The position numbers were made by a program, and so were the translations under genes. 64,000 bases of DNA from Erysipelothrix urinaevulpis (GTDB taxonomy: Bacteria; Bacillota_I; Bacilli_A; Erysipelotrichales; Erysipelotrichaceae): positions 310,001 through 374,000 of the forward strand of contig NZ_WTTB01000001.1 in NCBI RefSeq assembly GCF_009828835.1, read 5' to 3'. Shown here one piece after another: positions 26,717 to 45,968 of the stretch (position 1 is its first letter; each line of letters starts with the position of its first letter). The notes under the pieces were generated by a model. It had not been told where the DNA came from and searched no databases. It was given only the letters and a program-made list of their open reading frames with translations.

Positions 26717-26817
26717 AATAATCACCCCTATCTGCACCAAGTATATCATAGGAAATTTTATAAATGAGAAAAATATTGCTATTTGATTAAACTGTTTTGT
26801 CGGAATTAAAGAAAATG

Positions 26818-26832
26818 ATGAAAACGCTATCA
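26818..26832 (+). promoter_or_regulatory. cre site before the LPXTG surface-protein gene
   Basis: ATGAAAACGCTATCA matches WTGNAANCGNWNNCW at every defined position, 37 bp before the start codon. Confidence 0.75.
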
Positions 26833-26868
26833 AGGTGTGATAAATTTAGGGCAAAAGGAGGAAAAGTC

Positions 26869-29821: not shown

Positions 29822-31171
29822 ATGATAAAAGACTTTATTTTAAACGAAGCAAAGCGTTTGGATATTGAAATAAATGTTAGTATTAAAGCAAAAGAACTAG
29901 AATATTTCACCTATGATTTTAAAAACAATGTATTGACCATAGTCGCTGATCAGCAACGGTCAGTTCTCTATGGACTTTATGACTATCATCGTAGCAAGGC
30001 GCCTAATGCGAATAAAAAAGCAAGGTTTAATCGGCGTGGTAATATTTATGAAGTGATTAATGATGTTTCTTATCTAAAAAGCCAAATTCAGTTCGGAGCA
30101 GAATACTATCACAATGAAATATTTTTCACATTCTTTTTGTGGGATGAGGTAAAAGAAGAGTTGAAAGAAGAATTATTAAAAAGAGAGATTAACGTAACAT
30201 TAGGTGGACATAGTTTACAGTTTTTACTTAAAGAATCGATTAAAGAAAAAAAACTGGAAAACGTATTTTTATTTGAAAGCGAAATTTTACAGGAAATATT
30301 AGTAAAAAAAATTATAGACTATATTAAAGAATTTAAACTAATTACAAGAATATCACTGTGGCCAGAGGATCTATCAATCGAACGACACAATGGACAAGAA
30401 TTTTTTAAATCTTATCTTTCGTTTGTGAAGTACTTACAAAAAGAAATAGATCGACAAGCCTTAGGGGCGGAAGTAGAATTCATTGCTTACAATGCTGGCT
30501 TGTCTTGGGAAATGTTAGAAGTAACAAACTATGAGGAAAATTTAAAAGACGTTAACGCTTTGTTCGCCTATTGGGGCCATAATTATGGTGACTATCATGA
30601 AAAAAATTCTTTAAGGGGAATGAAAACCCTAGAAAAACTCACATCAAAATGCTCATCAACAACAGTATTGGAATATTATAGTGATTTTTTTATGCTGAGT
30701 GAGATTTATCCAAGTTTACTCAGACGAATTGAAACAGACATGAATTATTATGAAAGACTAAAATTGGAGGGCGTACTGAATTTGCATGTACCTTATTTTA
30801 CGGCACATCATTTTGATCAATTCAAAGAAAAATATAATTACCAAAGAATTCACCAACTTAATAATACTGCATACAGTTATCTTGGTTTTAATCCAACATT
30901 AGCAAGCTTGCATATTGAGGAGCGAAATGTTCATTTAGAAGTTGAAGATGTTTTAGCGCCATTAACTAAATATAACACGGTACTTTTTCCCAATAGGTTG
31001 ACGGATGTTAAGAATCCAGAATATCAGGCAATAATTTCGAAGGAATTAATGGAAGCAAAGACTAAGATGAAAGAAATTAAAATAGAATCACATACTTTAA
31101 AAGTATATCAAAAGTTAATAATTGAAATCCTTAGTGCATATCAGGAAAGTTGGGATACACTAATCGACTAA
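29822..31171 (+). CDS. Putative glycoside hydrolase (GH20/GH67/DUF4838-like), cytoplasmic
   Basis: 449 residues with no signal peptide. The N-terminal alpha/beta part ends in TIVADQQRSVLYGLYDYHR, a pattern seen in the non-catalytic domain of several glycosidase families (GH20, GH67, GH84, DUF4838). It is followed by a barrel-like region with RISLWPEDLSI and LFAYWGHNYGD. The distant pattern makes family assignment tentative; catalytic acids cannot be named. GGAGAG precedes the ATG at 29822. It lies 19 bp after the surface-protein gene, so one operon. It probably hydrolyses the imported oligosaccharide. Confidence 0.5.
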   Translation: MIKDFILNEAKRLDIEINVSIKAKELEYFTYDFKNNVLTIVADQQRSVLYGLYDYHRSKAPNANKKARFNRRGNIYEVINDVSYLKSQIQFGAEYYHNEIFFTFFLWDEVKEELKEELLKREINVTLGGHSLQFLLKESIKEKKLENVFLFESEILQEILVKKIIDYIKEFKLITRISLWPEDLSIERHNGQEFFKSYLSFVKYLQKEIDRQALGAEVEFIAYNAGLSWEMLEVTNYEENLKDVNALFAYWGHNYGDYHEKNSLRGMKTLEKLTSKCSSTTVLEYYSDFFMLSEIYPSLLRRIETDMNYYERLKLEGVLNLHVPYFTAHHFDQFKEKYNYQRIHQLNNTAYSYLGFNPTLASLHIEERNVHLEVEDVLAPLTKYNTVLFPNRLTDVKNPEYQAIISKELMEAKTKMKEIKIESHTLKVYQKLIIEILSAYQESWDTLID

Positions 31172-31624
31172 AAAACCAATCTGAGCAATAAAAACTAACC
31201 GAAAAGCAAGATAGTTACGAATAGACCGACAAAAGAAGATGTTAGTATGGTGAAATAAAGCAAAAAAATAAAGAAATAACGTCTATATACTAGGGTTTTA
31301 GAGGTATATGGCAAGATAGTTATAATTATTGGCAAGTTCGGTAATTTTCTAAGAGAGCAATAAAGGGTATAATGAAAGCGTATACAAGGGAGGGGCGTTT
31401 GCATTTAAATGAAAAATGTAGGAAATAAATGTAAACCTGTAGTTTATAAAACCGATTATTACCTTGTTACGTTGGATAGGATTCTATCCTAATGAGGAGT
31501 CTTGAGCTGTATTGATGATCATAAGGAGGTGCACTCAAAAAGAAGCTCAAATTGGAAACATTAGTAACTGTAATAAAGTTATGACATCGTGAAGATGCGT
31601 ATAAAAATCGTAGGAGGAAAATCG
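31172..31624. other. Long untranslated region before the ABC importer genes
   Basis: 453 bp with no credible gene. It holds a 12-bp direct repeat GCAAGATAGTTA (31206-31217 and 31311-31322), a promoter-like TATAAT at 31368-31373 overlapping a cre site, and then a leader of roughly 240 nt. A small hairpin GGATAG/CTATCC lies at 31474-31489. No known riboswitch fold was recognised. Confidence 0.5.
31372..31386 (+). promoter_or_regulatory. cre site overlapping the -10 of the ABC importer operon
   Basis: ATGAAAGCGTATACA fits WTGNAANCGNWNNCW at every defined position and overlaps the TATAAT at 31368-31373, so CcpA binding would exclude RNA polymerase. Confidence 0.78.
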
Positions 31625-32866
31625 ATGAAAAAAGCAATAAGAAATACAATAATTGTTTTACTATCATTATTAGTACTTGCAGGATGTGGAAAAAAAGCAG
31701 AAGAAACAAATAATGAGGACGTTGAACTTACAGTATGGGTTCATCCATATGTCGGTGCGGAGAAGAAAGAAGCCATTGAAGCAGTTTATGCTAAGATGAC
31801 TGAAGAATTCAAAAAAGATAATCCAAATGCAAAAATTACATTTGAAGAAATTCCATGGGCAGACCGTGAAACAAAAATCACAACAGCACTTGCAGCTAAA
31901 GAAGGACCAGACGTGTTCTACTTAATTCCTGACCAAATTTCACAATTTGCTGAAAAAGGATTATTAGCAGATCTTAATGAGCATATTACAAAAGATGATT
32001 TAAACGGATTCACAGAAACATCAGTTTCAGCCGTTACATATAAAGATAAATTATACGGATTACCAATCTTACGAGAATCACAAACATTATTCTATAATAA
32101 AGCAGTTCTTGAAGACATTGGTGGAGATGTAAATAACTTACCAACAACTTGGGATGAGTTTAACGAGTTAGGTAAAAAAGCAGTTGCTAAAGGATACTAT
32201 GCACGTACTTATGAAGGTGGAAATACATTAAACACCTCACTATACCCATTAGTATGGCAAGCAGGTGGAGATATTGTTAACGATAAAAACGAAATCTCAA
32301 TCAATAATGAAAAATCAGTAAAAGCATTTGAACAAATTAACGAATGGTATAAAGATGGATTAATTGCAAAAGATTCAATCACATCAGATGACCAAGGATC
32401 AATGTTCTTAGAAGGAAAAATCTTAGCAACATGGTCAGCAAACAATATGATTAACTTGGCAAAAGAAAATGATGTCGAAGTTTTAATTGGTTCACCATTA
32501 AAACAAGAAGTTGAAGTAACTTATGGAACAACAGGAGCATTTGTTGTTGCAAGCACATCAACAAACCAAGCAAAAGCAGCAGAATTTGTTAAAGTTATGA
32601 CAAACGAAGACAATATGCGTGAATTTAACACAGTTACAGGGCACATTCCAGCACGTGAAGCAGCAATGGATATTCTAAAAGACAATCCAGCAATGCTCCA
32701 AATGGCTGAATTAACAAAGATTGCTAAACCAGGTGTTATTAACTCTGAAGCACGTGTATTTATGCCAGATGTTCAAGCAGCAGTTCAAGCAATGTTGGAG
32801 GGTAAATTAACACCTCAACAAGCAGCAGATAAAGCAGCAGAAGATATTCAATCATACTTAAAATAA
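31625..32866 (+). CDS. ABC sugar-binding lipoprotein (family 1 extracellular solute-binding protein)
   Basis: 413 residues. A lipoprotein signal peptide ends in the lipobox LVLAGC (Cys about 21), followed by a Lys/Glu linker and a large two-lobed binding protein (LTVWVHPYVGAEKKEAIEAV, GPDVFYLIPDQ, ILRESQTLFYN, GAFVVASTSTNQAKAAEFVK). It delivers a sugar or oligosaccharide to the two permeases that follow. AGGAGG lies before the ATG at 31625; upstream in-frame ATGs lack the signal-peptide fit. Preferred codons are strongly used, suggesting high expression. Confidence 0.92.
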   Translation: MKKAIRNTIIVLLSLLVLAGCGKKAEETNNEDVELTVWVHPYVGAEKKEAIEAVYAKMTEEFKKDNPNAKITFEEIPWADRETKITTALAAKEGPDVFYLIPDQISQFAEKGLLADLNEHITKDDLNGFTETSVSAVTYKDKLYGLPILRESQTLFYNKAVLEDIGGDVNNLPTTWDEFNELGKKAVAKGYYARTYEGGNTLNTSLYPLVWQAGGDIVNDKNEISINNEKSVKAFEQINEWYKDGLIAKDSITSDDQGSMFLEGKILATWSANNMINLAKENDVEVLIGSPLKQEVEVTYGTTGAFVVASTSTNQAKAAEFVKVMTNEDNMREFNTVTGHIPAREAAMDILKDNPAMLQMAELTKIAKPGVINSEARVFMPDVQAAVQAMLEGKLTPQQAADKAAEDIQSYLK

Positions 32867-32905
32867 TTGAGTTTTAGTTTAAAATTTAGAATGTGAGGGT
32901 TTAAC

Positions 32906-33853
32906 ATGGAAGAAATTAAACAAACAATTGAAACCAAGAAAAGCCCACAAGAACTGAGTATATTTCAAAGAGTGCTTCGTCATTTCAAGAAGCACTCTCT
33001 GATTTATTTATTTTTAGTACCAATACTAATTCATTTCTCAGTTTTCTATGTGTGGCCAATTATATTTAGTTTTATTATTACATTTACAGACTATCAAATT
33101 GTTGGAAGTCCCAAGTTTATTGCGTTTGACAACTGGAAACGATTTTTCAATGATGCGAATGCGTGGAGATCAATTTGGAATACATTCAAATTCTCCTTGT
33201 ACTACATTGTGCCAACGATGGCATTAGGATTGTTCTTCGCAGTTCTAATTCAATCATTGAAACGTAAATGGGCGACGCTATTCAAGGGGATATTCTTTCT
33301 TCCTGTTGTAACCTCATTTGTCGTTATTTCTGGTATCTGGGCATGGATGTTTAAAGGGAACAGCTCAGGTTTTATTAATCAACTTTTATCGATATTTGGA
33401 ATTGAAGAACAATTGTTCTTATCGAGTTCAACCCAAGCACTGTTTGTCTTAGCGGGTTTATCGGTCTTTAAAGTTGTTGGAAATACAATGATCTATTATT
33501 ATGCAGGCTTACAAGGTATTCCAGATGATGTCTATGAAGCTGCAGAAATTGATGGCTCAGGTCGATTTAGAACATTTTTCAAAATCACCATGCCATTGCT
33601 ATTGCCAATTCATTTATATGTCGCAATAACAACCACAATTGGTTCGTTCCAGATTTTTGATTCTGCTTATTTATTAACAAATGGTGGACCAAATTATGCA
33701 ACAAATACAATTGTATTCTATATGTACCAACAAGGATTTAATGCATTCAACTTTGGTTATGCGAGTGTGTTAGCCTATGTACTATTCTTCTTTATCTTTA
33801 TTATATCAATGATACAAAAACGCTACCTTGGAAAACAGGTAGACTATAATTAG
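32906..33853 (+). CDS. ABC sugar permease, MalF/UgpA type
   Basis: 315 residues with six predicted membrane helices. The EAA loop is YEAAEIDGSGRFRTFFKITMP, the contact site for the ATPase. An N-terminal cytoplasmic stretch of about 30 residues precedes helix 1. No ATP-binding subunit gene is present in the cluster, so a shared multi-operon ATPase (MsmK-like) encoded elsewhere is expected. Confidence 0.92.
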   Translation: MEEIKQTIETKKSPQELSIFQRVLRHFKKHSLIYLFLVPILIHFSVFYVWPIIFSFIITFTDYQIVGSPKFIAFDNWKRFFNDANAWRSIWNTFKFSLYYIVPTMALGLFFAVLIQSLKRKWATLFKGIFFLPVVTSFVVISGIWAWMFKGNSSGFINQLLSIFGIEEQLFLSSSTQALFVLAGLSVFKVVGNTMIYYYAGLQGIPDDVYEAAEIDGSGRFRTFFKITMPLLLPIHLYVAITTTIGSFQIFDSAYLLTNGGPNYATNTIVFYMYQQGFNAFNFGYASVLAYVLFFFIFIISMIQKRYLGKQVDYN

Positions 33854-33862
33854 GAGGAAATT

Positions 33863-34681
33863 ATGAGCGAAAAAACAGCGAAGATAATTCGCAATATTAT
33901 ATTAGTTATATTTGGTATCTCGTTTCTAGTTCCTTTCATAATTATGATTACTGGAGCATTTATTGATGCGAAAATACCGGTAGGAAGTCCGTTTTTATGG
34001 TTAAAAACACATGAGATTACACTCAACAACTTCCGCCACATATTTAAGTATTCACAAATCTTAAGATGGTTAGTCAACTCGATCATAATTTCGGTAATAC
34101 CAACAGTATTACAAATGTTCTTTGCAGCTATTTTAGGGTATGTATTTGCAAGAAAAGACTTTTTTGGAAAAGAAATATTATTCTGGAGCATGATGGCGGT
34201 TGTTATGGTGCCAACGCAAGTCTTGATTATTCCACGATACATTATGTTTAGTGGCTTTAATCTTGTGAACAAGCGTGCAGCATTAATTCTGCCGGCAGTC
34301 TGGTCGATTATGGGGGTATTCTTAGTCAAACAGTTTATGGCACAATTACCAAAATCATTGGAAGAATCGGCCAAAATTGATGGCGCAAGTGATATGAAAA
34401 TATTCTTCTCAATTATGTTACCCTTATCCAAACCAGTTATCGCTACAGTTGGAACGTTTGCATTCATTTCAGCATGGAATGATTTCTTAACGCCTTTAAT
34501 TTTCACAACAAGTAGTGAGATGTATCCAATTACGGTTGGATTAGCATCACTGTTGACTAAAGAAGGAAACTTTGGAATTGAGATGGCAGGCGCATTATTA
34601 TCCTTTATTCCAACATTCCTAATATTCTTGTTCTTCCAAAAATACTTTACTAAAGGAATTGCATTTACGGGGGTTAAATAA
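33863..34681 (+). CDS. ABC sugar permease, MalG/UgpE type
   Basis: 272 residues with six helices. The EAA motif is LEESAKIDGASDMKIFFSIM. TAGGAGG precedes the ATG, 9 bp after the partner permease. Together they form the translocation pore for the ligand of the 31625 lipoprotein. Confidence 0.92.
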   Translation: MSEKTAKIIRNIILVIFGISFLVPFIIMITGAFIDAKIPVGSPFLWLKTHEITLNNFRHIFKYSQILRWLVNSIIISVIPTVLQMFFAAILGYVFARKDFFGKEILFWSMMAVVMVPTQVLIIPRYIMFSGFNLVNKRAALILPAVWSIMGVFLVKQFMAQLPKSLEESAKIDGASDMKIFFSIMLPLSKPVIATVGTFAFISAWNDFLTPLIFTTSSEMYPITVGLASLLTKEGNFGIEMAGALLSFIPTFLIFLFFQKYFTKGIAFTGVK

Positions 34682-34686
34682 TAAAT

Positions 34687-35703
34687 ATGAAATATATTGG
34701 AGCACAAAATGGTCGTATCGATGTATATAACGATGATAAACCAGAAGTAAAAGAGAATTATGTTTTAGTTAAAGTTGTTTACTCGGCTGTGAGTCCTGGT
34801 ACTGAAGGGACCATGAGCAGTCAATCTAAAGACGATATTGTTCGTTTAGGTTATTCTGCAGCAGGGATTGCTGAAGAAGTTGGGGAAGGTGTTGAGGGCA
34901 TTAAGGTTGGTGACAAAGTTGCAGTCTATGGTGCACCCTATGTCGGTCATCGCTCATACTTGAGTGTGCCTAAAACATTAGTAGCGAAAGTTCCTGAATC
35001 AGTTTCGTTAAGTGATGCTTCTTTAGCAGGGCTTGGAGCGATTGCGATTCATGGATTACGTCAAGGAGAACTGCAATTTGGTGAGATTTGTGTTGTGGTT
35101 GGCTTAGGAATTTATGGTCAACTCATTGCTCAAATTGCTCATAATGCAGGAATGGTTGTCTTAGCGCTTAATCGTTCACAAAGTCGTGCTGATCTTTTAG
35201 CAGATGTCTCAGGCTTGAAAACATACTCAGATGAGGCAGAACTAGAAAAAGATTTAGATATCCTTAGTGATGGAAAAGGCGCAGATGCAGTCTTCTTGTG
35301 TGCAGGATCTGGCGCAAGTTACTTAACAGATAAAAGTTTGGATTGGTTAAAAGATAAAGGGAAGTCCGTGATTGTTGGGGATATACAACCTCACTATACT
35401 CGAGAAAAAATGTTTGCGAAAGAGATTGATATTCGTATTTCTAGAGCGGGTGGACCGGGTCGTTACCAAACATCCTATGAACGGGATGCCGTTGATTATC
35501 CGTATGGATTTGTCCGTTGGACAGAAGGTAGAAATACAGCAGAATTTATTCGCTTACTAGAACAAAAGAGAATTAGTGTCAAAGAATATTACGATACACC
35601 AAGTTCATATGCTGACTTTGAAAAAGTTTATGAAGAACTTTCACAAAGAGGTTGTGAGTACTTGACGCATTGCTTCACTTATGACGATGAACAGGGGAGT
35701 TAA
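34687..35703 (+). CDS. MDR-family dehydrogenase lacking zinc-site residues
   Basis: 338 residues, medium-chain dehydrogenase/reductase fold with the nucleotide loop VVGLGIYGQLIAQIA. The usual catalytic-zinc Cys (GxCxSD) is replaced by AVSPGTEGTMSS, and the GHE motif by GYSAAG, so it is a zinc-independent member. It resembles the N-terminal half of so-called bi-domain oxidoreductases, which are fused to a Gfo/Idh domain; here two separate Gfo/Idh genes follow nearby. The start is 5 bp after the permease stop. It likely oxidises or reduces a sugar intermediate with NAD(P). Confidence 0.78.
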   Translation: MKYIGAQNGRIDVYNDDKPEVKENYVLVKVVYSAVSPGTEGTMSSQSKDDIVRLGYSAAGIAEEVGEGVEGIKVGDKVAVYGAPYVGHRSYLSVPKTLVAKVPESVSLSDASLAGLGAIAIHGLRQGELQFGEICVVVGLGIYGQLIAQIAHNAGMVVLALNRSQSRADLLADVSGLKTYSDEAELEKDLDILSDGKGADAVFLCAGSGASYLTDKSLDWLKDKGKSVIVGDIQPHYTREKMFAKEIDIRISRAGGPGRYQTSYERDAVDYPYGFVRWTEGRNTAEFIRLLEQKRISVKEYYDTPSSYADFEKVYEELSQRGCEYLTHCFTYDDEQGS

Positions 35704-35705
35704 AA

Positions 35706-36728
35706 ATGAATACAATACTAGAAAACATTGAAAAACAAATGAATACAGCATCCTCAATTTTGGTTGAAGATGTAAAAAAAATAGACGGGGATATTATAAT
35801 TTTAGGTGTAAGTGGTAAAATCGGTTATAACTTATCAGCGTTATTAATGGATGCATTAAAGAAAGCTGGTAAGGATACAACGGTTTACGGAGTTGCTCGA
35901 TTCTCAGGTGGTCCAGAGTCACGACAAGATCTTGAAGACCTTGGTGTAAAGACCATCGTAGCAGATTTCATGAATGATGAAGAACTTGGATCATTGCCAA
36001 AGGTAAAAAATGTTATTTACATGGTTGGTTATAAGTTTGGAAGTACTGGTAATGAATCGTATACATGGGCATTGAACAGTTATTTACCAGGACGTGTTGC
36101 TGAACATTATAAAGACTCAAGAATTGTTGCCTTCTCAACGGGGTGTGTTTATCCGCTTGTTGATGTTAAAGATGCAGCACCTTCTGAAGAATTTATGCCA
36201 GATGCTATTGGGGAGTATGCACAATCTTGTCTAGGACGAGAAAGAATCTTTGAACATTTTTCAAAGACAAACAATACAGAGATGTTAATTTATCGATTAA
36301 ATTATGCCATTGATGTTCGTTATGGTGTTCTTGTTGAATTAGGAACCGCAGTTTATGAGGGACGTCCTGTTGATGTTACGATGGGACAAGTTAATGTCAT
36401 TTGGCAACCTGATGCAAGTGAGATGGCAATTCGTAGCTTATTACACTGTACATCACCTGCAAACATCATGAATATCACAGGACCTGAAACTTTATCAGTT
36501 CGTTGGATTTCAGAACGATTTGCAGAAGTTATGGATAAAGAAATTGAATTTGTTGGTGAAGAAGCCACAACAGCATTGTTGAATAATGCTTCAAAATCTC
36601 ATGAGATTTTTGGTTATCCTCAAACAACAATTCGCGAGATGATTGATATTGTTGCGACATGGATTATGGAAAATGGTGCAATGATTGATAAACCAACTCA
36701 CTTCCAAGAAAGAGAAGGAAAGTATTAA
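35706..36728 (+). CDS. NAD-dependent epimerase/dehydratase-family protein with altered YxxxK
   Basis: 340 residues, extended SDR fold. The Rossmann loop ILGVSGKIGYNLS is intact and FSTGCVYPL gives the Ser/Thr strand. At the catalytic YxxxK the sequence reads EYAQSCLGRERI, so Lys is replaced by Cys (TGT codon). Either catalysis differs or the protein binds NAD without classical SDR chemistry. It overlaps the next gene by one base (TAATG). Confidence 0.8.
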   Translation: MNTILENIEKQMNTASSILVEDVKKIDGDIIILGVSGKIGYNLSALLMDALKKAGKDTTVYGVARFSGGPESRQDLEDLGVKTIVADFMNDEELGSLPKVKNVIYMVGYKFGSTGNESYTWALNSYLPGRVAEHYKDSRIVAFSTGCVYPLVDVKDAAPSEEFMPDAIGEYAQSCLGRERIFEHFSKTNNTEMLIYRLNYAIDVRYGVLVELGTAVYEGRPVDVTMGQVNVIWQPDASEMAIRSLLHCTSPANIMNITGPETLSVRWISERFAEVMDKEIEFVGEEATTALLNNASKSHEIFGYPQTTIREMIDIVATWIMENGAMIDKPTHFQEREGKY

Positions 36729-37789
36729 TGATTGAAAATAAACGTGAGATTTTACGTAAGGGAACAGTCATCCCAGCTCATCCTTTAGCACTTAATGAGG
36801 ATCGTAGTCTTGATGAATTAAATCAAAGAGCTTTAACTCACTATTACATCGATGCTGGAGTAGGGGGGTTAGCGGTGGGAGTTCATACCACACAATTTGA
36901 GATTCGCGATCCTGAATTTAACCTGTACGACGATGTGTTAAGAATGGCAAGTGAAGAAGTTGTTAAACGTGATGTTGAAAAAGAATTAATCATGATTGCA
37001 GGTTTAGCAGGGCCAACAGAACAAGCATGCAATGAAGCAAGGATTGCTAAAAAATATAATTATGATTCAGTCTTATTGAGTATGGGTCATCTTCCTGATT
37101 ATTCAGAAGAAGAATTGTTGGATCGTGCTCGTAAAGTTGCAGAAATCATGCCAGTGTTTGGTTTTTATCTTCAACCTTCAGCGGGGGGGCGAATTCTTTC
37201 TTTTGATTTTTGGAAAGAATTTATGCAAATTGAAAATGTTATTGCTGTCAAAATTGCACCGTTTAACCGTTACCAATCCATTGATGTGATGAATGCAGTT
37301 CTTTTATCACCACGATGGAAAGATATTACGGTTTATACAGGAAATGATGACAACATTGTTGCTGATTTATTGACAGAATATAGCCTTGTTGTTGATGGGG
37401 AACTTCGACAAAAACAAATTGTTGGTGGATTATTAGGTCACTGGTCAGTCTGGACTCAAAAAGCTGTTGAATTATTTGAAGATATTCAAGCTTATCGTGA
37501 TGGCCAAGGGTCAGCCCATGAATTGTTGAAACGCGGTACCCACGTTACTGATACCAATGCAGCATTCTTTGATGTACGTAATAATTTTAAAGGATGTATT
37601 GCAGGAATTAATGAAGTGCTTGCACGTCAAGGTCTTTTAAAAGGAAACTGGTGTTTATTAGACAAAGAACGTCTTAGTGCAGATCAAAGTGAATACATTG
37701 ATTTAGTGTATGAACGTTATCCGGAACTGAATGATGATCAATTTGTTAAAGAAAATCTTGAAAAATGGCGAGGATATGCAAGTAAATAA
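36728..37789 (+). CDS. DapA/NanA-family lyase or dehydratase
   Basis: 353 residues, TIM barrel of the dihydrodipicolinate synthase / N-acetylneuraminate lyase superfamily. The probable Schiff-base lysine is in VIAVKIAPFNRY (about residue 172), with Tyr in VFGFYLQPS. It is longer than DapA (about 290). In this context a retro-aldol cleavage or dehydration of a keto-deoxy sugar acid is more likely than lysine biosynthesis. Confidence 0.78.
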   Translation: MIENKREILRKGTVIPAHPLALNEDRSLDELNQRALTHYYIDAGVGGLAVGVHTTQFEIRDPEFNLYDDVLRMASEEVVKRDVEKELIMIAGLAGPTEQACNEARIAKKYNYDSVLLSMGHLPDYSEEELLDRARKVAEIMPVFGFYLQPSAGGRILSFDFWKEFMQIENVIAVKIAPFNRYQSIDVMNAVLLSPRWKDITVYTGNDDNIVADLLTEYSLVVDGELRQKQIVGGLLGHWSVWTQKAVELFEDIQAYRDGQGSAHELLKRGTHVTDTNAAFFDVRNNFKGCIAGINEVLARQGLLKGNWCLLDKERLSADQSEYIDLVYERYPELNDDQFVKENLEKWRGYASK

Positions 37790-38636
37790 GAAGATTTCAA
37801 TAGGAATAATCGGTGCCGATACGACTCACGTATCGGCATTTGTTGAAGCATTGACATTGAATCCGGAGTATTCCCAAGTCTTTGAAGTCTTGGGGATATA
37901 TGATGATGCCTTAACCCAGAATAGTTTTTTTATTCAACGAAAAGATGCAATAAAAACAAAATTAAAAGAGCTTGGTTTTGAGTGCACACAGGATGATAGT
38001 TTTTTGAAAAAATGTGATGGATTGCTTATTTTAACGGGTGATGCTTCTGTTCATTTAAAGCTATTTAAAATGTATGCTCATCAGAATCAAGCGGTTTTTA
38101 TCGATAAACCAGCCACCTATGATCGTGCATCCTATCAAACGATGGTTGACTATGCAACTAAGCATGATATAGCAATGTTTAGTTCATCCGCGATGCGATT
38201 TGCACAGTTTGTTCAAAAGGCAAAAGAACAGGTACAAACTCATTCAAGTGTTGTTGTGAGGGGACCTTTGTCATTTATCGAAGGAATACCAGATTATCAT
38301 TGGTATGGCATTCATTTACTTGAAATGTTGGATGAAGTTGTAGAGGGTCCATTAAGAATCAAAAGCTTTTCTATGTCAGACACCAAAGAGCGAATTATCT
38401 TTCACGATGAGACGAAACACTTGGAAATCGTAGGGATAAAAGTTGGTAATCCAAACTTTGAGGTCTTTGTCGATGATGTTAGCTACGAATTGAAGGATAC
38501 CTTGTATGTATCGTTATTAAAAGAGATTACGACATTTATTCAAACAAAAGAAAGTCCGGTTAAGACAACTGGAAAAATAATGAATTTATTAGAGGAAATT
38601 AATCTGTGGAAAAGCGAGGCGAGCAAAAATGATTAA
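37776..38636 (+). CDS. Gfo/Idh/MocA-family oxidoreductase 1
   Basis: 286 residues. The N-terminal Rossmann domain has IGIIGADTTHVSAF; the conserved motif EKP appears as IDKPATYD, so the lysine is present. The start is uncertain: ATG 37776 gives the family-like N-terminus but has AGGA only one base away; ATG 37731 would overlap the lyase gene by 59 bp. It overlaps the next gene by 8 bp. It likely interconverts hydroxyl and keto groups of a sugar. Confidence 0.78.
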   Translation: MQVNKKISIGIIGADTTHVSAFVEALTLNPEYSQVFEVLGIYDDALTQNSFFIQRKDAIKTKLKELGFECTQDDSFLKKCDGLLILTGDASVHLKLFKMYAHQNQAVFIDKPATYDRASYQTMVDYATKHDIAMFSSSAMRFAQFVQKAKEQVQTHSSVVVRGPLSFIEGIPDYHWYGIHLLEMLDEVVEGPLRIKSFSMSDTKERIIFHDETKHLEIVGIKVGNPNFEVFVDDVSYELKDTLYVSLLKEITTFIQTKESPVKTTGKIMNLLEEINLWKSEASKND

Positions 38637-39591
38637 GGTTGGATTTATTGGTTGTGGAAAGATTTTTTATAAACATTGTCTCGCGTTGGAAAAAGTTGAG
38701 GGTGTTAAAATTGTTGCGATGAGTGATTGTAATTTCAATAAAGCGAAAGTTGCGACCTCACTTCATGGTGGTGTTGCTTATAGTAGTTATGCTGAGATGT
38801 TAAAACAAGAAAAGATTGATGTGGTTCATGTATGTACACCGACAAAGACTCATTATGAGATTAGTTCGTATTGTTTAGAACATGGAATATCAGTGATCGT
38901 TGAGAGTCCACTTGAATTTGATGCTGTAAAATCACTCAAAATCATGCAGAAGGCTCAAGAAAATGATGTAAATATTTATGTTGTTAATCCTTATGAGCAT
39001 ATTGAATCTCATATAAAATTGATGAGAACGATGGAAGAAGGAATTCTTGGTGAAATTCTAGGGGGACGGTTGATTTTGTCTTGGAAAAAAGATAGTCAAC
39101 AAATGCCTGGAGTGATGAGTCATTCGATGTTTCAAATCCTTGATTATGTTAATCAGTGTATTGAACTTGAGATCAAGGATGTGAATTTTATGGCTGATCG
39201 TCGGTTTGGTGAAGTCTATGATGTATTGGATGGTATAATTCGCTATAAGAACGATTCTGTGCTAGCTGTATGGGCTAATTCTTATGCTTCAATGGATTAT
39301 CCTATGCAGCTTGAAATTGAGTGTGAGAAAGGCTTAATTAAGCTTGTTGGTAACGAATTAGAAATTAACCGACATGATCATATGATTTGTCGTGAAAACT
39401 ATTCCCTTCAAGATTATATTAATCAAGATATCGGAATAAGTAATCCCCTCCATCTTGCTTATATCCATGCTCTTGAAGACTTCTATCACAACTATGAATC
39501 GTATGAATTTTCAGATAAACACCTCATCAAAACTCAAATGCTTGTCGCTAATATTCAGTCATCACTTAATCATGGTGATTATTATGAATAA
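38629..39591 (+). CDS. Gfo/Idh/MocA-family oxidoreductase 2, catalytic Lys missing
   Basis: 320 residues. Rossmann loop VGFIGCGKIFYKH at the N-terminus, HVCTPTKTHYEI in the NAD-binding domain, and a C-terminal alpha/beta domain (GGRLILSWKKD). The EKP motif reads VESPLEFD, so Lys is replaced by Ser (AGT codon). GAGGCGAG precedes the ATG. The previous gene overlaps it by 8 bp and the following start overlaps by 8 bp. Confidence 0.82.
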   Translation: MIKVGFIGCGKIFYKHCLALEKVEGVKIVAMSDCNFNKAKVATSLHGGVAYSSYAEMLKQEKIDVVHVCTPTKTHYEISSYCLEHGISVIVESPLEFDAVKSLKIMQKAQENDVNIYVVNPYEHIESHIKLMRTMEEGILGEILGGRLILSWKKDSQQMPGVMSHSMFQILDYVNQCIELEIKDVNFMADRRFGEVYDVLDGIIRYKNDSVLAVWANSYASMDYPMQLEIECEKGLIKLVGNELEINRHDHMICRENYSLQDYINQDIGISNPLHLAYIHALEDFYHNYESYEFSDKHLIKTQMLVANIQSSLNHGDYYE

Positions 39592-40795
39592 TTTAACTCA
39601 ATGGATCGAATCTCAAAGTCTGCGGCATCTTGAAAAAATTACGCAGTTAAGTGATACGATTTGGTCTTTAAAAGAAGTGAAATTTGAAACACAAGAATCT
39701 GCTAAACTAATGGCAAATACTCTAGAAGAGCAAGGTTTTTCCATTGAATTTGGTGTTGCAGGACTTCAAAGTGCTTTTGTCGCAAGCTATGGTGAGTTTG
39801 GTCCAACTGTTGGATTTTTAGCTGAATATGATGCCTTAGAAGGTGTTGGACATGCTTGTGGTCATAATTTACTGGGTTCAGGGTCCACATTAGCGGCCAT
39901 TCTTTGCAAAGAATATCAACAAGAAACACACAAACCATTCCAAATAAAACTCTTTGGCTGTCCAGCGGAAGAAAGTGGTTATGGGAAATCAATTATGGCT
40001 GCAGCAGGGGTCTTTGATGATGTTGATATTATGTTAACATGGCATCCCAATAATTTTACTCAAATTTGGGCAGATGAAACACTCGCTGTTCGACAAGCTG
40101 AATTTGAATTTAAAGGAATTGCGAGTCATGCAGCAGGGGCCCCTGAATTGGGTCGATCAGCCCTTGATGCGTGTGAGTTAATGAATGTCGGGGTCAATTA
40201 TCTAAGAGAACATGTTTTGCCAAGCGTCAGAATGCATTATGCATACTTAGATGCAGGGGGTCCTTCTGCTAATGTTGTGCAAGAAACAGCAAAGCTGTAT
40301 TATTTTATCCGAGATGAGACCTTAGCAGGAGTCAATGAGGTCTTAGAAAGAGTTGAAAAGATTGCTCAAGGGGCAGCCTTAATGACTGAAACCACCTTAG
40401 ATATTCACTATGATGGACTGTGTAAAAGTTATCATGCGAATCAAGAACTCTCAAAGCTGTTACATGAATCATTAGTAGCGTTAGGACCCATTGATTATGG
40501 GGATCAAAGTTCGGACTATGATTCCAAAATATTAGAGCCTATCTTTGAGCAAAAAGGCATGGTTTCAACCGATGTTGGCGATGTGAGTTGGATCACACCA
40601 ACAGCCCAAGCCTTCATCGCTTGTGAGCCCATAAAATACCCAATGCACTCCATACAATGGACTGAAAATGGCACAACGAAAATTGCACATTTAGGCATAA
40701 AAAAAGCAGGAGAAGCACTCGCTCTCACTGCTATAAAAGTTATGAATGATTCATCATTGCTCGAGTCAATCCAAGCTTCATTTAAAGGGGAATAG
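39584..40795 (+). CDS. M20-family amidohydrolase (AbgB/IAL-like)
   Basis: 403 residues, zinc peptidase-like hydrolase. Metal-site motifs are EYDALEGVGHACGHNLLGSG and CPAEESGYGKS, with the dimerisation domain around FKGIASHAAGAP. Relatives hydrolyse N-acyl or p-aminobenzoyl amino acids. In a sugar operon it could remove an acyl or aminoacyl group from an amino sugar. The ATG at 39584 matches the family start; the longer frame upstream is unsupported. Its 3' end overlaps the convergent AraC gene by 14 bp. Confidence 0.85.
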   Translation: MNNLTQWIESQSLRHLEKITQLSDTIWSLKEVKFETQESAKLMANTLEEQGFSIEFGVAGLQSAFVASYGEFGPTVGFLAEYDALEGVGHACGHNLLGSGSTLAAILCKEYQQETHKPFQIKLFGCPAEESGYGKSIMAAAGVFDDVDIMLTWHPNNFTQIWADETLAVRQAEFEFKGIASHAAGAPELGRSALDACELMNVGVNYLREHVLPSVRMHYAYLDAGGPSANVVQETAKLYYFIRDETLAGVNEVLERVEKIAQGAALMTETTLDIHYDGLCKSYHANQELSKLLHESLVALGPIDYGDQSSDYDSKILEPIFEQKGMVSTDVGDVSWITPTAQAFIACEPIKYPMHSIQWTENGTTKIAHLGIKKAGEALALTAIKVMNDSSLLESIQASFKGE

Positions 40796-41785: not shown

Positions 41786-43108
41786 ATGAAAAAAGATTTA
41801 ATAATTTGTATTGCAGGTGCTGGTAGCACCTATACCCCAGGAATTATTCAAAGCATTTTGAGTCGTTATGAACAATTTCCAGTTAGTGAAATAAGACTCT
41901 ATGATGTATCACAGAAACGAAATCATCGAACCTATGTGATTGTGGAATATTTAACGCAACGATTGAATCAATCGATTAAGCTCGTAGAAACAACAGACCC
42001 AGAACTTGCCTTCACTGGCGTTGATTATATTTTCTCTCAAATTCGTGCGGGTGGCTTAAAAATGAGAGAACTAGATGAAAAGATTCCGCTTAAACATGGA
42101 CTTGTTGGTCAAGAGACATGTGGTGTAGGTGGCTTTGCTTATGGAATGCGCTCAATGGTCCAATTTTTAGATTTAGTCAAGGACTGCATCACCTATGCAC
42201 CCGATGCATGGATTCTAAACTATACCAATCCAGAAACGATTATATCTGAAGCGGTTCGTCGTCAATTTCCATCTGCTAAAATTATCAATGCCTGTGACAT
42301 GGCCATTAGTATTAGTAAAACAATTGCTGATATTTATGACTATGATCATGATGGATGGGTTCCGACTTATTATGGCTTGAACCACTTTGGTTGGTTTACT
42401 GAAGTTTATGATAAAAACTTAGATAAGGATGTTCTTCCTGAGATTATCAAACGAGCTCAACAAGAAGGTGTTTGGCTTAATGAAGGAGATGATAGTTGGA
42501 AAGAAACGTATGTTAATTTGGGTCGAATGATTCAATACTTTCCAGATAGTATTCCCAACAACTATCTTGAGTATTATTTAATGGGCGATGAGAAAGTTGC
42601 GAAAGCAGATCCAAGTTATACTCGTGCTAATTACGTCATGGATAATCGTGATAATTATATGGAAAACTTTTATCAAGCAATTCTTACAGGATCGAAAAAA
42701 GACCTTGAGGCTTATTCAATGGAGAATGAGATTCATGGTCAATATATTACAGATATTGCTATTTCATTGCATTGTGATCTTAACCAACGTTTTAATCTCA
42801 TTGTTCCAAACAAAGGGGCAATTCCAAATTTAAGATCGGATGCAGTCGTGGAGGTTCCTGCTTATGTCAGTGCCAAAGGTGTAGAACCCATTGCCTTACG
42901 ACATGAGATATCGGATTTCCATAAAGGGTTGATGGAAGCACAGGTCGCTTCAGAGAAGTTATGGGTGGATGCATTCTTTGAACAATCGTATCTTAAAGCA
43001 CTTCAAGCCTTTACATTGAATCAAACGGTGCCTTCAATGTTAGTAGCCAAAAAAGTTCTTGATGATCTAATTGAAGCCAATAAAGGCTATTGGCCTGAAC
43101 TGAAATAG
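41786..43108 (+). CDS. GH4 6-phospho-glucosidase, alpha-type motif
   Basis: 440 residues. NAD-binding N-terminus CIAGAGSTYTPGI; Mn/NAD-dependent family 4 chemistry. The motif around Cys170 reads NACDMAIS. Family 4 6-phospho-alpha-glucosidases (GlvA/MalH) carry CDMP, whereas beta-enzymes carry CN[VI]P, so an alpha-linked 6-phospho disaccharide is suggested, with Pro replaced by Ala. YYGLNHFGWF supplies further active-site residues. Strong AAGGAGG. It precedes an EIIC gene by 2 bp, so it hydrolyses the phosphorylated product of that permease. Confidence 0.86.
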   Translation: MKKDLIICIAGAGSTYTPGIIQSILSRYEQFPVSEIRLYDVSQKRNHRTYVIVEYLTQRLNQSIKLVETTDPELAFTGVDYIFSQIRAGGLKMRELDEKIPLKHGLVGQETCGVGGFAYGMRSMVQFLDLVKDCITYAPDAWILNYTNPETIISEAVRRQFPSAKIINACDMAISISKTIADIYDYDHDGWVPTYYGLNHFGWFTEVYDKNLDKDVLPEIIKRAQQEGVWLNEGDDSWKETYVNLGRMIQYFPDSIPNNYLEYYLMGDEKVAKADPSYTRANYVMDNRDNYMENFYQAILTGSKKDLEAYSMENEIHGQYITDIAISLHCDLNQRFNLIVPNKGAIPNLRSDAVVEVPAYVSAKGVEPIALRHEISDFHKGLMEAQVASEKLWVDAFFEQSYLKALQAFTLNQTVPSMLVAKKVLDDLIEANKGYWPELK

Positions 43109-43110
43109 GA

Positions 43111-44301
43111 ATGGACAACCACGCTGAAAAATTGCTGGCACCATTATTAAAAAGTCAAGATAATGCTCTTTTAAAAGCCTATCATAAGGCACATGGAAAC
43201 CTGTTAATGGGATTAATTTTAATCTCATTAACAAGTTTATTATCACAAGGAGTTACGCGAGTTTTGGGACATGATTTTGGAATGATAACACTCCTTCAAA
43301 CTGTCTATCGTTATCTCAATGTGTTTTCGCTAATCTTAATTGCATATGAATTAGCAAGTAACTCTGACACATCTCCTTATAATTCAGTGCTCTTATCACT
43401 ATTTATCTTCTTTTTAAGCATCAATGCATTCGATAAGATCGATGCCCACTCAGTTCTAGCCTATCCATTTGTTATGATAGCACCCTTGATATCTCAAGGA
43501 TTGATTCAAATTATGACGTTTATAATTGAGAAAATCATACCCCAAGAATCAAAAAAGTTCCCAGATAAAATCAATTCACTTATCAGCGAATTGCTGGTGT
43601 TTATGATTAGTGTTTTACTTGTTTTTGTTCTTGTTCATATGTTTAAGTATCAGTTTGTAGTGCTCATATCTTTGTATCTTGATGTTGCTTCATCAATTTT
43701 TAACCTTTACCAAAGTGTGTGGGTGTTTTTAATCATTTTATTTTTACTGAATTACATCTGGTATTATGGCTTTCATGGTGATCAAGTCTTATCACTGTGG
43801 TTTGAACCGATGCTTATTATTTTTACAATGTTTAATCTTGGAAAATGGCTTGGTATTGCAGATCATACCTATATTATTAATGCATCGTTCTATACTGCAT
43901 TTTCAGGTGTAACAGGGTCAGGGATTACGGGAGCAATCATCGTTAACCTCATCTTGAAAAAGAAAAAGAATCTTGCAATTGTGAAAAGTTCAATGGTCCC
44001 AGCCATTTTCAATATCAATGAAACAGTCATGTTTGGGTTACCAATCGTTGGCAATAAAATATTTAAAGTGCCGTTTCTATTGGCGCCAATCATTGCTGGG
44101 AGTCTTGCATACTTGGCAACAAGTGTTGGGTTGATGAAACCTTACATGTTGGCAGTTCCTTGGTATTTTCCGATTGGATTAAAAAGCTTAATTGCTACAG
44201 GGGGCCATTTACCCAGTGTGTTAATTGAGTTGGGAATATTTTTAACAATTGTATTGCTTTACTTACCAGCAACACTAAAATACATAAGAGAGCTTGATTA
44301 A
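43111..44301 (+). CDS. PTS EIIC permease, lactose/cellobiose-like, slightly short
   Basis: 396 residues with about ten helices. The EIIC signature is FNINETVMFGLPIVGN (about residue 300). It diverges from typical CelB at the N-terminal half and has an expanded hydrophilic loop (PQESKKFPDKINS). EIIA and EIIB are absent. Only AGGA abuts the ATG; translation is probably coupled to the GH4 gene. Cargo is a disaccharide hydrolysed by the GH4 enzyme. Confidence 0.82.
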   Translation: MDNHAEKLLAPLLKSQDNALLKAYHKAHGNLLMGLILISLTSLLSQGVTRVLGHDFGMITLLQTVYRYLNVFSLILIAYELASNSDTSPYNSVLLSLFIFFLSINAFDKIDAHSVLAYPFVMIAPLISQGLIQIMTFIIEKIIPQESKKFPDKINSLISELLVFMISVLLVFVLVHMFKYQFVVLISLYLDVASSIFNLYQSVWVFLIILFLLNYIWYYGFHGDQVLSLWFEPMLIIFTMFNLGKWLGIADHTYIINASFYTAFSGVTGSGITGAIIVNLILKKKKNLAIVKSSMVPAIFNINETVMFGLPIVGNKIFKVPFLLAPIIAGSLAYLATSVGLMKPYMLAVPWYFPIGLKSLIATGGHLPSVLIELGIFLTIVLLYLPATLKYIRELD

Positions 44302-44311
44302 GCTCTCTTAT
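44284..44311. terminator. Bidirectional terminator between EIIC and rpiR-type gene
   Basis: ATAAGAGAGCTT / AAGCTCTCTTAT with a GATT loop. It spans both convergent stop codons. Confidence 0.8.
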
Positions 44312-45051
44312 TTCATGGTGTCCAAATATGAGAAGACGAAGTAGTCTAACAATGCTTTCAAGGTTAAGCCAGGCCAAGGCATGATGCTGCTATGAATACT
44401 GTCATCATTAAAATAAAAACGAAGTTTAGATGCTTGTGCAATTTCATTCAAACCATACGAGGTTAAAGAGACGGTGGTAACACCTTTCAGAGTTAAGTAT
44501 TGAATGATTTCAGCAACGGATTCTGTGTTGCCACTCAATGAACAAACAATCACCAAAGAATTAGGTTCAATACTTTTCGCAATCCGGTCAAAATCTTGCA
44601 ACGCTTGAATATTAATGAATGGCTTATGGTAGGTAAACATATCATTGCTAAATAACTCCAGCATTTTTGCTTGTTTCCATCCAGTACCAAAAACATACCG
44701 TTGTGAGGATTCGTTGATCGATAAAAATAGTTCCTCTAAACTTTCGTTGTTGACACCATCAAGTGTAATGCGTATATTTTCGACAATGACTTGTTTGTAA
44801 TCGATCGTGTGTGCAGTTTTTTCTTGTTTATTTTCTTGGATCATGGCGTATTTAAACTCACTATACCCATCAAAACCCAATTTCTTAATCAAACGATAAA
44901 CCGTTGCATTCGAAGAATTACTCATTTTAGAAAACTCTTCGATTGTTAATGAATCAAACTGTAAATCTTCCTTCAACATATAGTTTAGAATATGTAAATC
45001 ACTATCCGTTAAACGATCATAATATGTGTTAACTCTTTCTCTTAAAGTCAT
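44308..45051 (-). CDS. RpiR-family regulator 1 (HTH + SIS domain)
   Basis: 247 residues. The HTH region (SLTIEEFSKMSNSSNATVYR, about 34-53) is followed by a SIS sugar-phosphate-binding domain (VFGTGWKQAKM, IVCSLSGNTESVAEII). The ATG at 45049-45051 is chosen because AAGGTG lies at proper spacing; the longer frame to 45084 lacks one. It is adjacent to the GH4/EIIC and deacetylase genes and probably senses a phosphorylated sugar of that pathway. Confidence 0.84.
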   Translation of the reverse strand: MTLRERVNTYYDRLTDSDLHILNYMLKEDLQFDSLTIEEFSKMSNSSNATVYRLIKKLGFDGYSEFKYAMIQENKQEKTAHTIDYKQVIVENIRITLDGVNNESLEELFLSINESSQRYVFGTGWKQAKMLELFSNDMFTYHKPFINIQALQDFDRIAKSIEPNSLVIVCSLSGNTESVAEIIQYLTLKGVTTVSLTSYGLNEIAQASKLRFYFNDDSIHSSIMPWPGLTLKALLDYFVFSYLDTMK

Positions 45052-45060
45052 TCTGACACC

Positions 45061-45081
45061 TTTTTTCACAAAGTGAAAAAA
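45061..45081. promoter_or_regulatory. Palindrome at the rpiR-type promoter
   Basis: TTTTTTCAC AAA GTGAAAAAA is a perfect inverted repeat (9-bp arms) 9 bp upstream of the regulator start. It is a candidate autoregulatory operator or an mRNA leader hairpin. Confidence 0.45.
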
Positions 45082-45209
45082 CACCCTTTCTTTTGATAAT
45101 TATACATCATTTCCAATAACTATGGTCGACAAATTGTCTCTATGGTATAAGTAAAGTGTAGGAAATAAAATAAATTGTTCATGAGAAAAACAATAAAAGG
45201 AGTAATACT

Positions 45210-45968
45210 ATGGGAAAAGTAATCATTAATGCCGATGATTTCGGCTACAGTCGTGGAATAAATTATGCAATAGTTGATAGTCATCAACTCGGAATTTTAA
45301 CGTCAACAACAATCATGGCAGGAATGCCAGGATTTGAACATGCTGTCGAACTGTCAAAGAGCAATCCTAACTTAGGAATTGGCGTACACTTAACATTGAC
45401 TTGCGGCTATCCATTATTGAAAGATCACAAAACAATTATTGACTCATCAGGAAGATTTAAAAATTTAGCTTTTTTCACTCAAGAGAATGATTATGATCTT
45501 GAAGAAGTGTATAGAGAATGGGAAGCACAGATTGAGAAAGTCATCGCTGCAGGAATTAATCCTAGTCACCTGGATTCGCACCACCACACACACAGCTTTC
45601 CAAAACAACAAGCTATTGTTGTAAAGTTAGCAAGAAAATATAATCTTCCAGTCAGAAATAATTTGTCATTACCATCAGATATCGTGAAAGTAAATCGATT
45701 TGAACCACTATTTGATACTGTTGCGATTGAAAGTGAAGAGGCTCTAAAAGTATATTTAGCAAATGTTAAAAACGATATTGAACATTGGGGAACTGTCGAA
45801 ATTATGGTTCATCCAGGATACCTTGATTCTGATGTTTATCAAGGATCCAGTTTAACCGAAAATCGAAGTTATGTTGCTGATTTTCTGATGAATTCAACGT
45901 TTGCTAAAACGCTAAAAAAGAGCAAGGTTATCAAGCTGATTTCTTATCATGAGTTATCGGATCGATAA
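45210..45968 (+). CDS. ChbG/HpnK (YdjC) family carbohydrate deacetylase
   Basis: 252 residues. Metal ligands are visible in INADDFGYSRGIN (Asp-Asp) and LDSHHHTHSFP (His pair), with GVHLTLTCG following the fold. The family removes N-acetyl groups from amino-sugar oligosaccharides or their phosphates. Placed beside a GH4 glycosidase and EIIC, it suggests an N-acetylated disaccharide substrate. AAAGGAG lies before the ATG. Confidence 0.86.
   Translation: MGKVIINADDFGYSRGINYAIVDSHQLGILTSTTIMAGMPGFEHAVELSKSNPNLGIGVHLTLTCGYPLLKDHKTIIDSSGRFKNLAFFTQENDYDLEEVYREWEAQIEKVIAAGINPSHLDSHHHTHSFPKQQAIVVKLARKYNLPVRNNLSLPSDIVKVNRFEPLFDTVAIESEEALKVYLANVKNDIEHWGTVEIMVHPGYLDSDVYQGSSLTENRSYVADFLMNSTFAKTLKKSKVIKLISYHELSDR

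Follow-up and report, generated by a model that had tools for sequence, protein, structure and literature searches.

Gene content of the block

The window analysed here, by which we mean the whole stretch of 64,000 nt (Erysipelothrix urinaevulpis, contig NZ_WTTB01000001.1, positions 310,001 to 374,000, forward strand), contains a single run of genes on the + strand whose frames overlap or nearly touch. The run encodes, in order, an ABC transporter, an MDR-type dehydrogenase, a short-chain dehydrogenase/reductase (SDR), a DHDPS-family protein, two Gfo/Idh proteins, and an M20 amidohydrolase. Pfam assigns its central genes to Epimerase (PF01370; a weak score of 28.7 bits), DHDPS (PF00701), and GFO_IDH_MocA. 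Of immediate interest are the SDR, listed as NAD-dependent epimerase/dehydratase-like (340 aa; 35706..36728), the DHDPS/NAL-family protein of the class I aldolase type (353 aa; 36728..37789), the short first Gfo/Idh protein (286 aa; 37776..38636), and the second Gfo/Idh protein (320 aa; 38629..39591). The original prediction for this block stated that the SDR and the second Gfo/Idh protein lack the lysine of their respective active sites, that the first Gfo/Idh protein keeps it, and that all reading frames are intact. These statements were borne out for the three genes: the SDR carries YAQSC in place of YxxxK within the sequence GEYAQSCLGRER, with a TGT codon for Cys175 at 36228..36230; the second Gfo/Idh protein reads VESPLEF, where Ser93 (codon AGT; 38905..38907) aligns on the EKP lysine; the first Gfo/Idh protein reads IDKP; and each of the three frames is uninterrupted. 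The prediction had also dealt with the two altered proteins together, as if one cause accounted for both. For this we found no support, since the loss in the SDR is a trait of its family and that in the second Gfo/Idh protein is specific to a lineage.

An SDR family without the YxxxK lysine

Relatives of the SDR were gathered by tblastn in plasmid records and by searching 84,980 species genomes with a profile; a single-sequence scan of genome contigs gave no match, and the profile scan then gave at least 580 confirmed relatives. Homologues with 38-68% identity occur in Bacillota, Bacteroidota, Actinomycetota, Alphaproteobacteria, Planctomycetota, and haloarchaea. In the alignments Cys175 stands on the YxxxK lysine of GalE and other epimerases, and among 99 distinct homologues this position is occupied by Cys (80), Thr (12), Ser (4), or Val (3), and never by Lys; the pattern was seen first on 16 rows and then on 102 rows before the distinct homologues were counted. 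The same 99 proteins all share Ser144, Tyr171, Lys38, Lys110, Arg65, Arg178, and many other residues, together with the Gly-rich cofactor loop G34-x-x-G37-K-x-G40, while position 145 alternates between Thr (60) and Ser (39). Lys110 aligns with the GLK lysine of the GalE-type epimerases of the same genome; its equivalent in Escherichia coli GalE, Lys84, presumably contacts NAD. The comparison within the genome was done by family searches, and the other GalE/epimerase-type SDRs examined there retain YxxxK.

Because the lysine is absent family-wide, its absence is a trait of the family and not a mutation. As judged from these alignments, the SDR belongs to a Lys-free family of extended SDRs in which the general-base lysine is gone but the cofactor loop persists along with Tyr and Ser/Thr. 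The family is large, widespread, and apparently uncharacterised, and its loss of the lysine is old and fixed. Its Thr, Ser, and Val members imply that Cys is not itself essential, and the replacement for Lys seems merely required to be small. With Lys missing throughout the family and every other active-site and cofactor residue invariant, the protein could plausibly bind a cofactor or carry out a different chemistry.

The fold agrees with an extended SDR. An AlphaFold run on a 39-row alignment (the window protein and rows from related loci) gave a model with pLDDT 91.4 and pTM 0.92, and the closest solved folds are TerB (Z ~31) and then GalE, RmlB, and related epimerases/dehydratases (Z 28-30), over ~290 residues. 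With the single SDR sequence no sequence relative was found in the PDB; the SDR profile weakly finds TerB (1e-7, the best PDB profile match) and GalE, and its Cys column falls on their lysines. By its modelled fold the protein is placed among the extended SDRs, although it lacks the YxxxK lysine that marks that group. With the PF01370 extended SDRs (GalE, RmlB, UDP-glucuronate 4-epimerase) it has in common the Rossmann fold, GxxGxxG, the catalytic Ser/Thr and Tyr residues, a GLK-type lysine following beta4, and the two-domain extended fold; it differs from them by the want of the YxxxK lysine in every member of the family, by an additional N-terminal segment of ~25 residues, and by a conserved KPTHFQER-like C-terminus. 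TerB, an NADP-dependent oxidoreductase of terfestatin biosynthesis (6d2v/6nd7), is 19-20% identical to the SDR but keeps Y-x3-K in the alignment, and is the product of a natural-product gene not known to pair with an aldolase. Substrate reduction by SDRs in which the usual lysine is missing has precedents in SimC7, which has neither Tyr nor Lys and works by substrate-assisted reduction (PMC5039031), and in triad mutants of E. coli FabG that retain activity (PMC7973133). SimC7 lacks the Tyr as well, FabG was long regarded as a classical SDR, and neither is close to the present family.

Pairing of the SDR gene with that of a DHDPS-family aldolase

Of 98 loci, 94 have a DHDPS-family gene within 1 kb of the SDR gene; in 90 the distance is at most 300 bases and the strand is the same. 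The DHDPS-family protein keeps the Schiff-base lysine (its own K175) in all 94 rows with a letter at that position and Tyr147 in 92 of 95, which makes a functional class I aldolase probable. Among solved structures, N-acetylneuraminate lyases (NAL) are closest to it, at low similarity. The conserved gene pair suggests that the two proteins catalyse successive steps or form a complex. In open-access text, we found no relevant paper on such a pair.

A second Gfo/Idh protein that has lost its active site

The first Gfo/Idh protein is probably active, judging by its residues: Lys111 of IDKP, His180 (in WYGIH), and Trp176-Tyr177-Gly178 are present in all 33 homologues. In the second Gfo/Idh protein the loss extends beyond the lysine. 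Further along, His165 and Gln169 (39121..39135, GVMSHSMFQILD) stand where the canonical GGGVxxDxxxHxxD has its Asp and His, and the substrate loop of ~15 residues that should precede them is missing. The NAD-binding domain PF01408 is recognised at 76.7 bits (cut-off 24), and the C-terminal domain PF22725 scores 23.6 bits, below its cut-off of 27. The fold match covers ~340 columns, with a model pLDDT of just 77.9. The protein has PF01408 in common with the Gfo/Idh/MocA dehydrogenases (DgpA, WlbA, BsIDH), and the fold at TM 0.75-0.84 to WlbA/DgpA2, but unlike them it is without the EKP lysine, the Asp, and the His. Its nearest man-made analogue is the structure of the engineered BsIDH K97V lysine mutant (3ntq). 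Lys is found in 103 of the 105 distinct Gfo/Idh proteins of the fetched loci; the two without it are the window protein and the corresponding protein of a congener. Within the same genome, E/D-K-P is retained by all the other Gfo/Idh proteins that were resolved. A search of open-access text gave no relevant paper on natural Gfo/Idh proteins without Lys, Asp, and His, or on heteromeric Gfo/Idh enzymes.

That congener (G108) has a fully syntenic operon in which the counterpart reads VIEAP, with Ala for the lysine, no active-site Asp, and Gln for His. Between the two operons the second Gfo/Idh proteins are 28% identical, against 79% for the SDR, 74% for the DHDPS-family protein, 41% for the first Gfo/Idh protein, and 57% for the M20 protein. 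Two further congeners (G499 and G500) have the operon without a second Gfo/Idh gene, so that M20 directly follows the first. Two canonical proteins are most similar to it: one from Vagococcus (EKP, DQAIH), whose gene immediately precedes an M20-like gene in the homologous operon, and a paralogue encoded elsewhere in the E. urinaevulpis genome (SEKP, DQAIH). Outside the block, this genome has a tandem of three canonical Gfo/Idh genes (L049:2380-5384), the third of which is the closest active paralogue of the second Gfo/Idh gene.

In the tree the window and G108 proteins form one clade with support 99/99 inside Lys-bearing relatives, on a stem of 1.4; their tips measure 1.3 and 2.2, whereas the median tip is 0.48, which marks them as fast-evolving; among 294 genomes of the order the type is present in these two alone. 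Codon position 2 is nonetheless more conserved between the two genes than position 3 (identity 0.57 vs 0.37; shuffled 0.31 and 0.30), so that some constraint at the protein level persisted after the split, and both proteins have C-terminal segments matching EIxRHDxMIxRxN. With the nearest relatives Lys-bearing and two congeners gene-less, the loss is lineage-specific, and the second Gfo/Idh protein is, as its sequence relatives indicate, a lineage-specific pseudoenzyme whose whole active site was lost recently within one genus. Here, then, a sugar dehydrogenase appears to have become a pseudoenzyme in a setting where active paralogue, active relative, and gene-less congeners can all be compared.

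Interpretation of the two losses

The explanation we favour, and hold to be probable with some reserve, is that the two lysine losses differ in origin, and that the block encodes both a Lys-free SDR that works together with an aldolase to break down sugars and an accessory, dead Gfo/Idh protein. From the conserved residues we infer that the SDR likely binds NAD(P), and that Lys110, which corresponds to the conserved GalE lysine, would help to hold the cofactor. It would still use Ser144/Thr145-Tyr171 on a sugar-derived substrate, in a step that may depend on the Schiff-base aldolase encoded next to it, as the gene neighbourhoods suggest. The second Gfo/Idh gene would derive from an ordinary Lys-bearing Gfo/Idh gene near an M20 gene; the Lys, Asp, His, and substrate loop would have gone in an ancestor of two species of the genus while the frame was kept intact. 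The phylogeny and the retained constraint make a dead dehydrogenase kept as an accessory or regulatory subunit the most likely state of its product, perhaps as a partner of the first Gfo/Idh protein, with whose frame its own overlaps. More tentatively, and with considerable doubt, we propose that the Lys-free SDR family as a whole is the near-obligate partner of a class I aldolase, either in a sugar-degradation step not so far described that uses Lys-free SDR chemistry, or as part of a cofactor-gated aldolase complex. Against the explanation as a whole it should be said that conservation of Ser and Tyr would be no proof of redox catalysis without Lys, that adjacency of the SDR and DHDPS-family genes would likewise be no proof of a common pathway or complex, and that a second Gfo/Idh pair with so low an identity leaves room for the gradual decay of a dispensable gene.

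For the SDR, a role other than catalysis has precedents. MATbeta (MAT2B) and HSCARG/NmrA have the SDR fold and serve as regulatory subunits that bind NADP or as sensors of NAD(P) (PMC3793261), which shows that the fold can serve as a regulatory subunit beside an enzyme, and the SDR of the block might by analogy be no oxidoreductase but a cofactor-binding partner or sensor in a complex that regulates the adjacent aldolase. The near-obligate gene pair fits such a role, as does the loss of the general-base lysine with retention of the nucleotide-binding residues. We nevertheless regard it as unlikely, because the invariant Ser144 and Tyr171 would be superfluous in a pure sensor; moreover, MATbeta, likened here by role and not by sequence, keeps the full Ser-Tyr-Lys triad (PMC3793261), so that loss of Lys alone is no sign of a sensor. 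Still less credible is Cys175 as a catalytic nucleophile, or as a redox or metal residue in place of Lys: its predominance among the homologues would favour this, but 19 of the 99 have Thr, Ser, or Val instead, many in the same SDR-DHDPS context. As a required nucleophile it was rejected on account of these members.

For the second Gfo/Idh gene the rival is plain decay after loss of the substrate, with the frame intact because the loss is recent, and this we consider a serious contender, though not the favoured one. All catalytic residues and the loop are lost, the branches are long, and the gene is missing in two congeners; on the other hand neither copy is interrupted in its more than 300 codons, although the proteins have diverged by ~72%, and the codon-position pattern and the shared C-terminal segments argue for constraint. 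The statement of the original prediction that this is not simple decay stands for the SDR, with its family-wide absence of Lys and otherwise invariant residues; in the second Gfo/Idh protein the rest of the active site has gone together with the lysine. The prediction had named orthologues with Lys in the same context as evidence that would speak against it: none was seen for the SDR (0 of 99 homologues), and for the second Gfo/Idh protein such evidence was found in part, as the Vagococcus gene and the paralogue carry Lys and two congeners have no gene. A sequencing error or a strain-specific mutation, which had also been envisaged, has a negligible chance of being correct; independent genomes show the same SDR residue and a congener is also without the second Gfo/Idh lysine, and both readings were rejected on the strength of these orthologues. 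Nor are the missing lysines a matter of chance, given the comparisons with other members of the two families within the genome and beyond it.

The annotations given to these proteins by pipelines, 'NAD-dependent epimerase/dehydratase' and 'Gfo/Idh/MocA oxidoreductase', predict activities that these active sites may not support. Given the recurrence of the SDR-aldolase pair in nearly all the loci and the number of SDR relatives, knowledge of the pair's reaction would account for a common and apparently uncharacterised sugar pathway and bear on the mechanism of an extended SDR that has no YxxxK lysine.

Other genes of the block and its surroundings

The carbohydrate ABC transporter (a binding protein and two permeases; 31589..34681, + strand) belongs to the same operon and is syntenic in three congeners and in Vagococcus. 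It is followed by the MDR-type oxidoreductase, which resembles 'zinc-binding alcohol dehydrogenase' (338 aa; 34687..35703, + strand; PF00107/PF08240) and has SAVSPGTE and LGYSAAG where the usual Cys and GHE motifs of zinc alcohol dehydrogenases are expected. Its S33, S36, G38-T39-E40, and G55-Y56-S57 (the SxxSxGTE and GYS motifs) are conserved in 23 of 23 homologues. Of the block's four oxidoreductases, three thus have non-canonical active sites. At the other end of the run lies the M20-family amidohydrolase (39584..40795, + strand), which scores above the cut-off of TIGR01891.

Upstream, the region 26797-29802 encodes a large secreted protein with a CBM_4_9 module, beta-propeller-like repeats, and an LPKTG-type C-terminal anchor, and propeller relatives of this protein recur beside the SDR-DHDPS pair at several other loci. 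The protein of 449 aa encoded at 29822-31168 has no match in Pfam, NCBIfam, or the PDB; homologues with 36-38% identity are found in the SDR operons of Fredinandcohnia (L058), Psychrobacillus (L061), and Bacillus (L116), and it is possibly an unrecognised glycoside-active enzyme. Adjoining the block, the region 41786-45968 holds a GH4-like glycosidase, a PTS-like membrane protein, an RpiR-type regulator, and a ChbG/YdjC-like deacetylase, all identified by eye, which suggests that it handles amino-sugar oligosaccharides. At other loci the neighbours include Gfo/Idh and sugar-isomerase genes, and these prompted us to consider a 3-keto-glycoside elimination pathway for the whole block.

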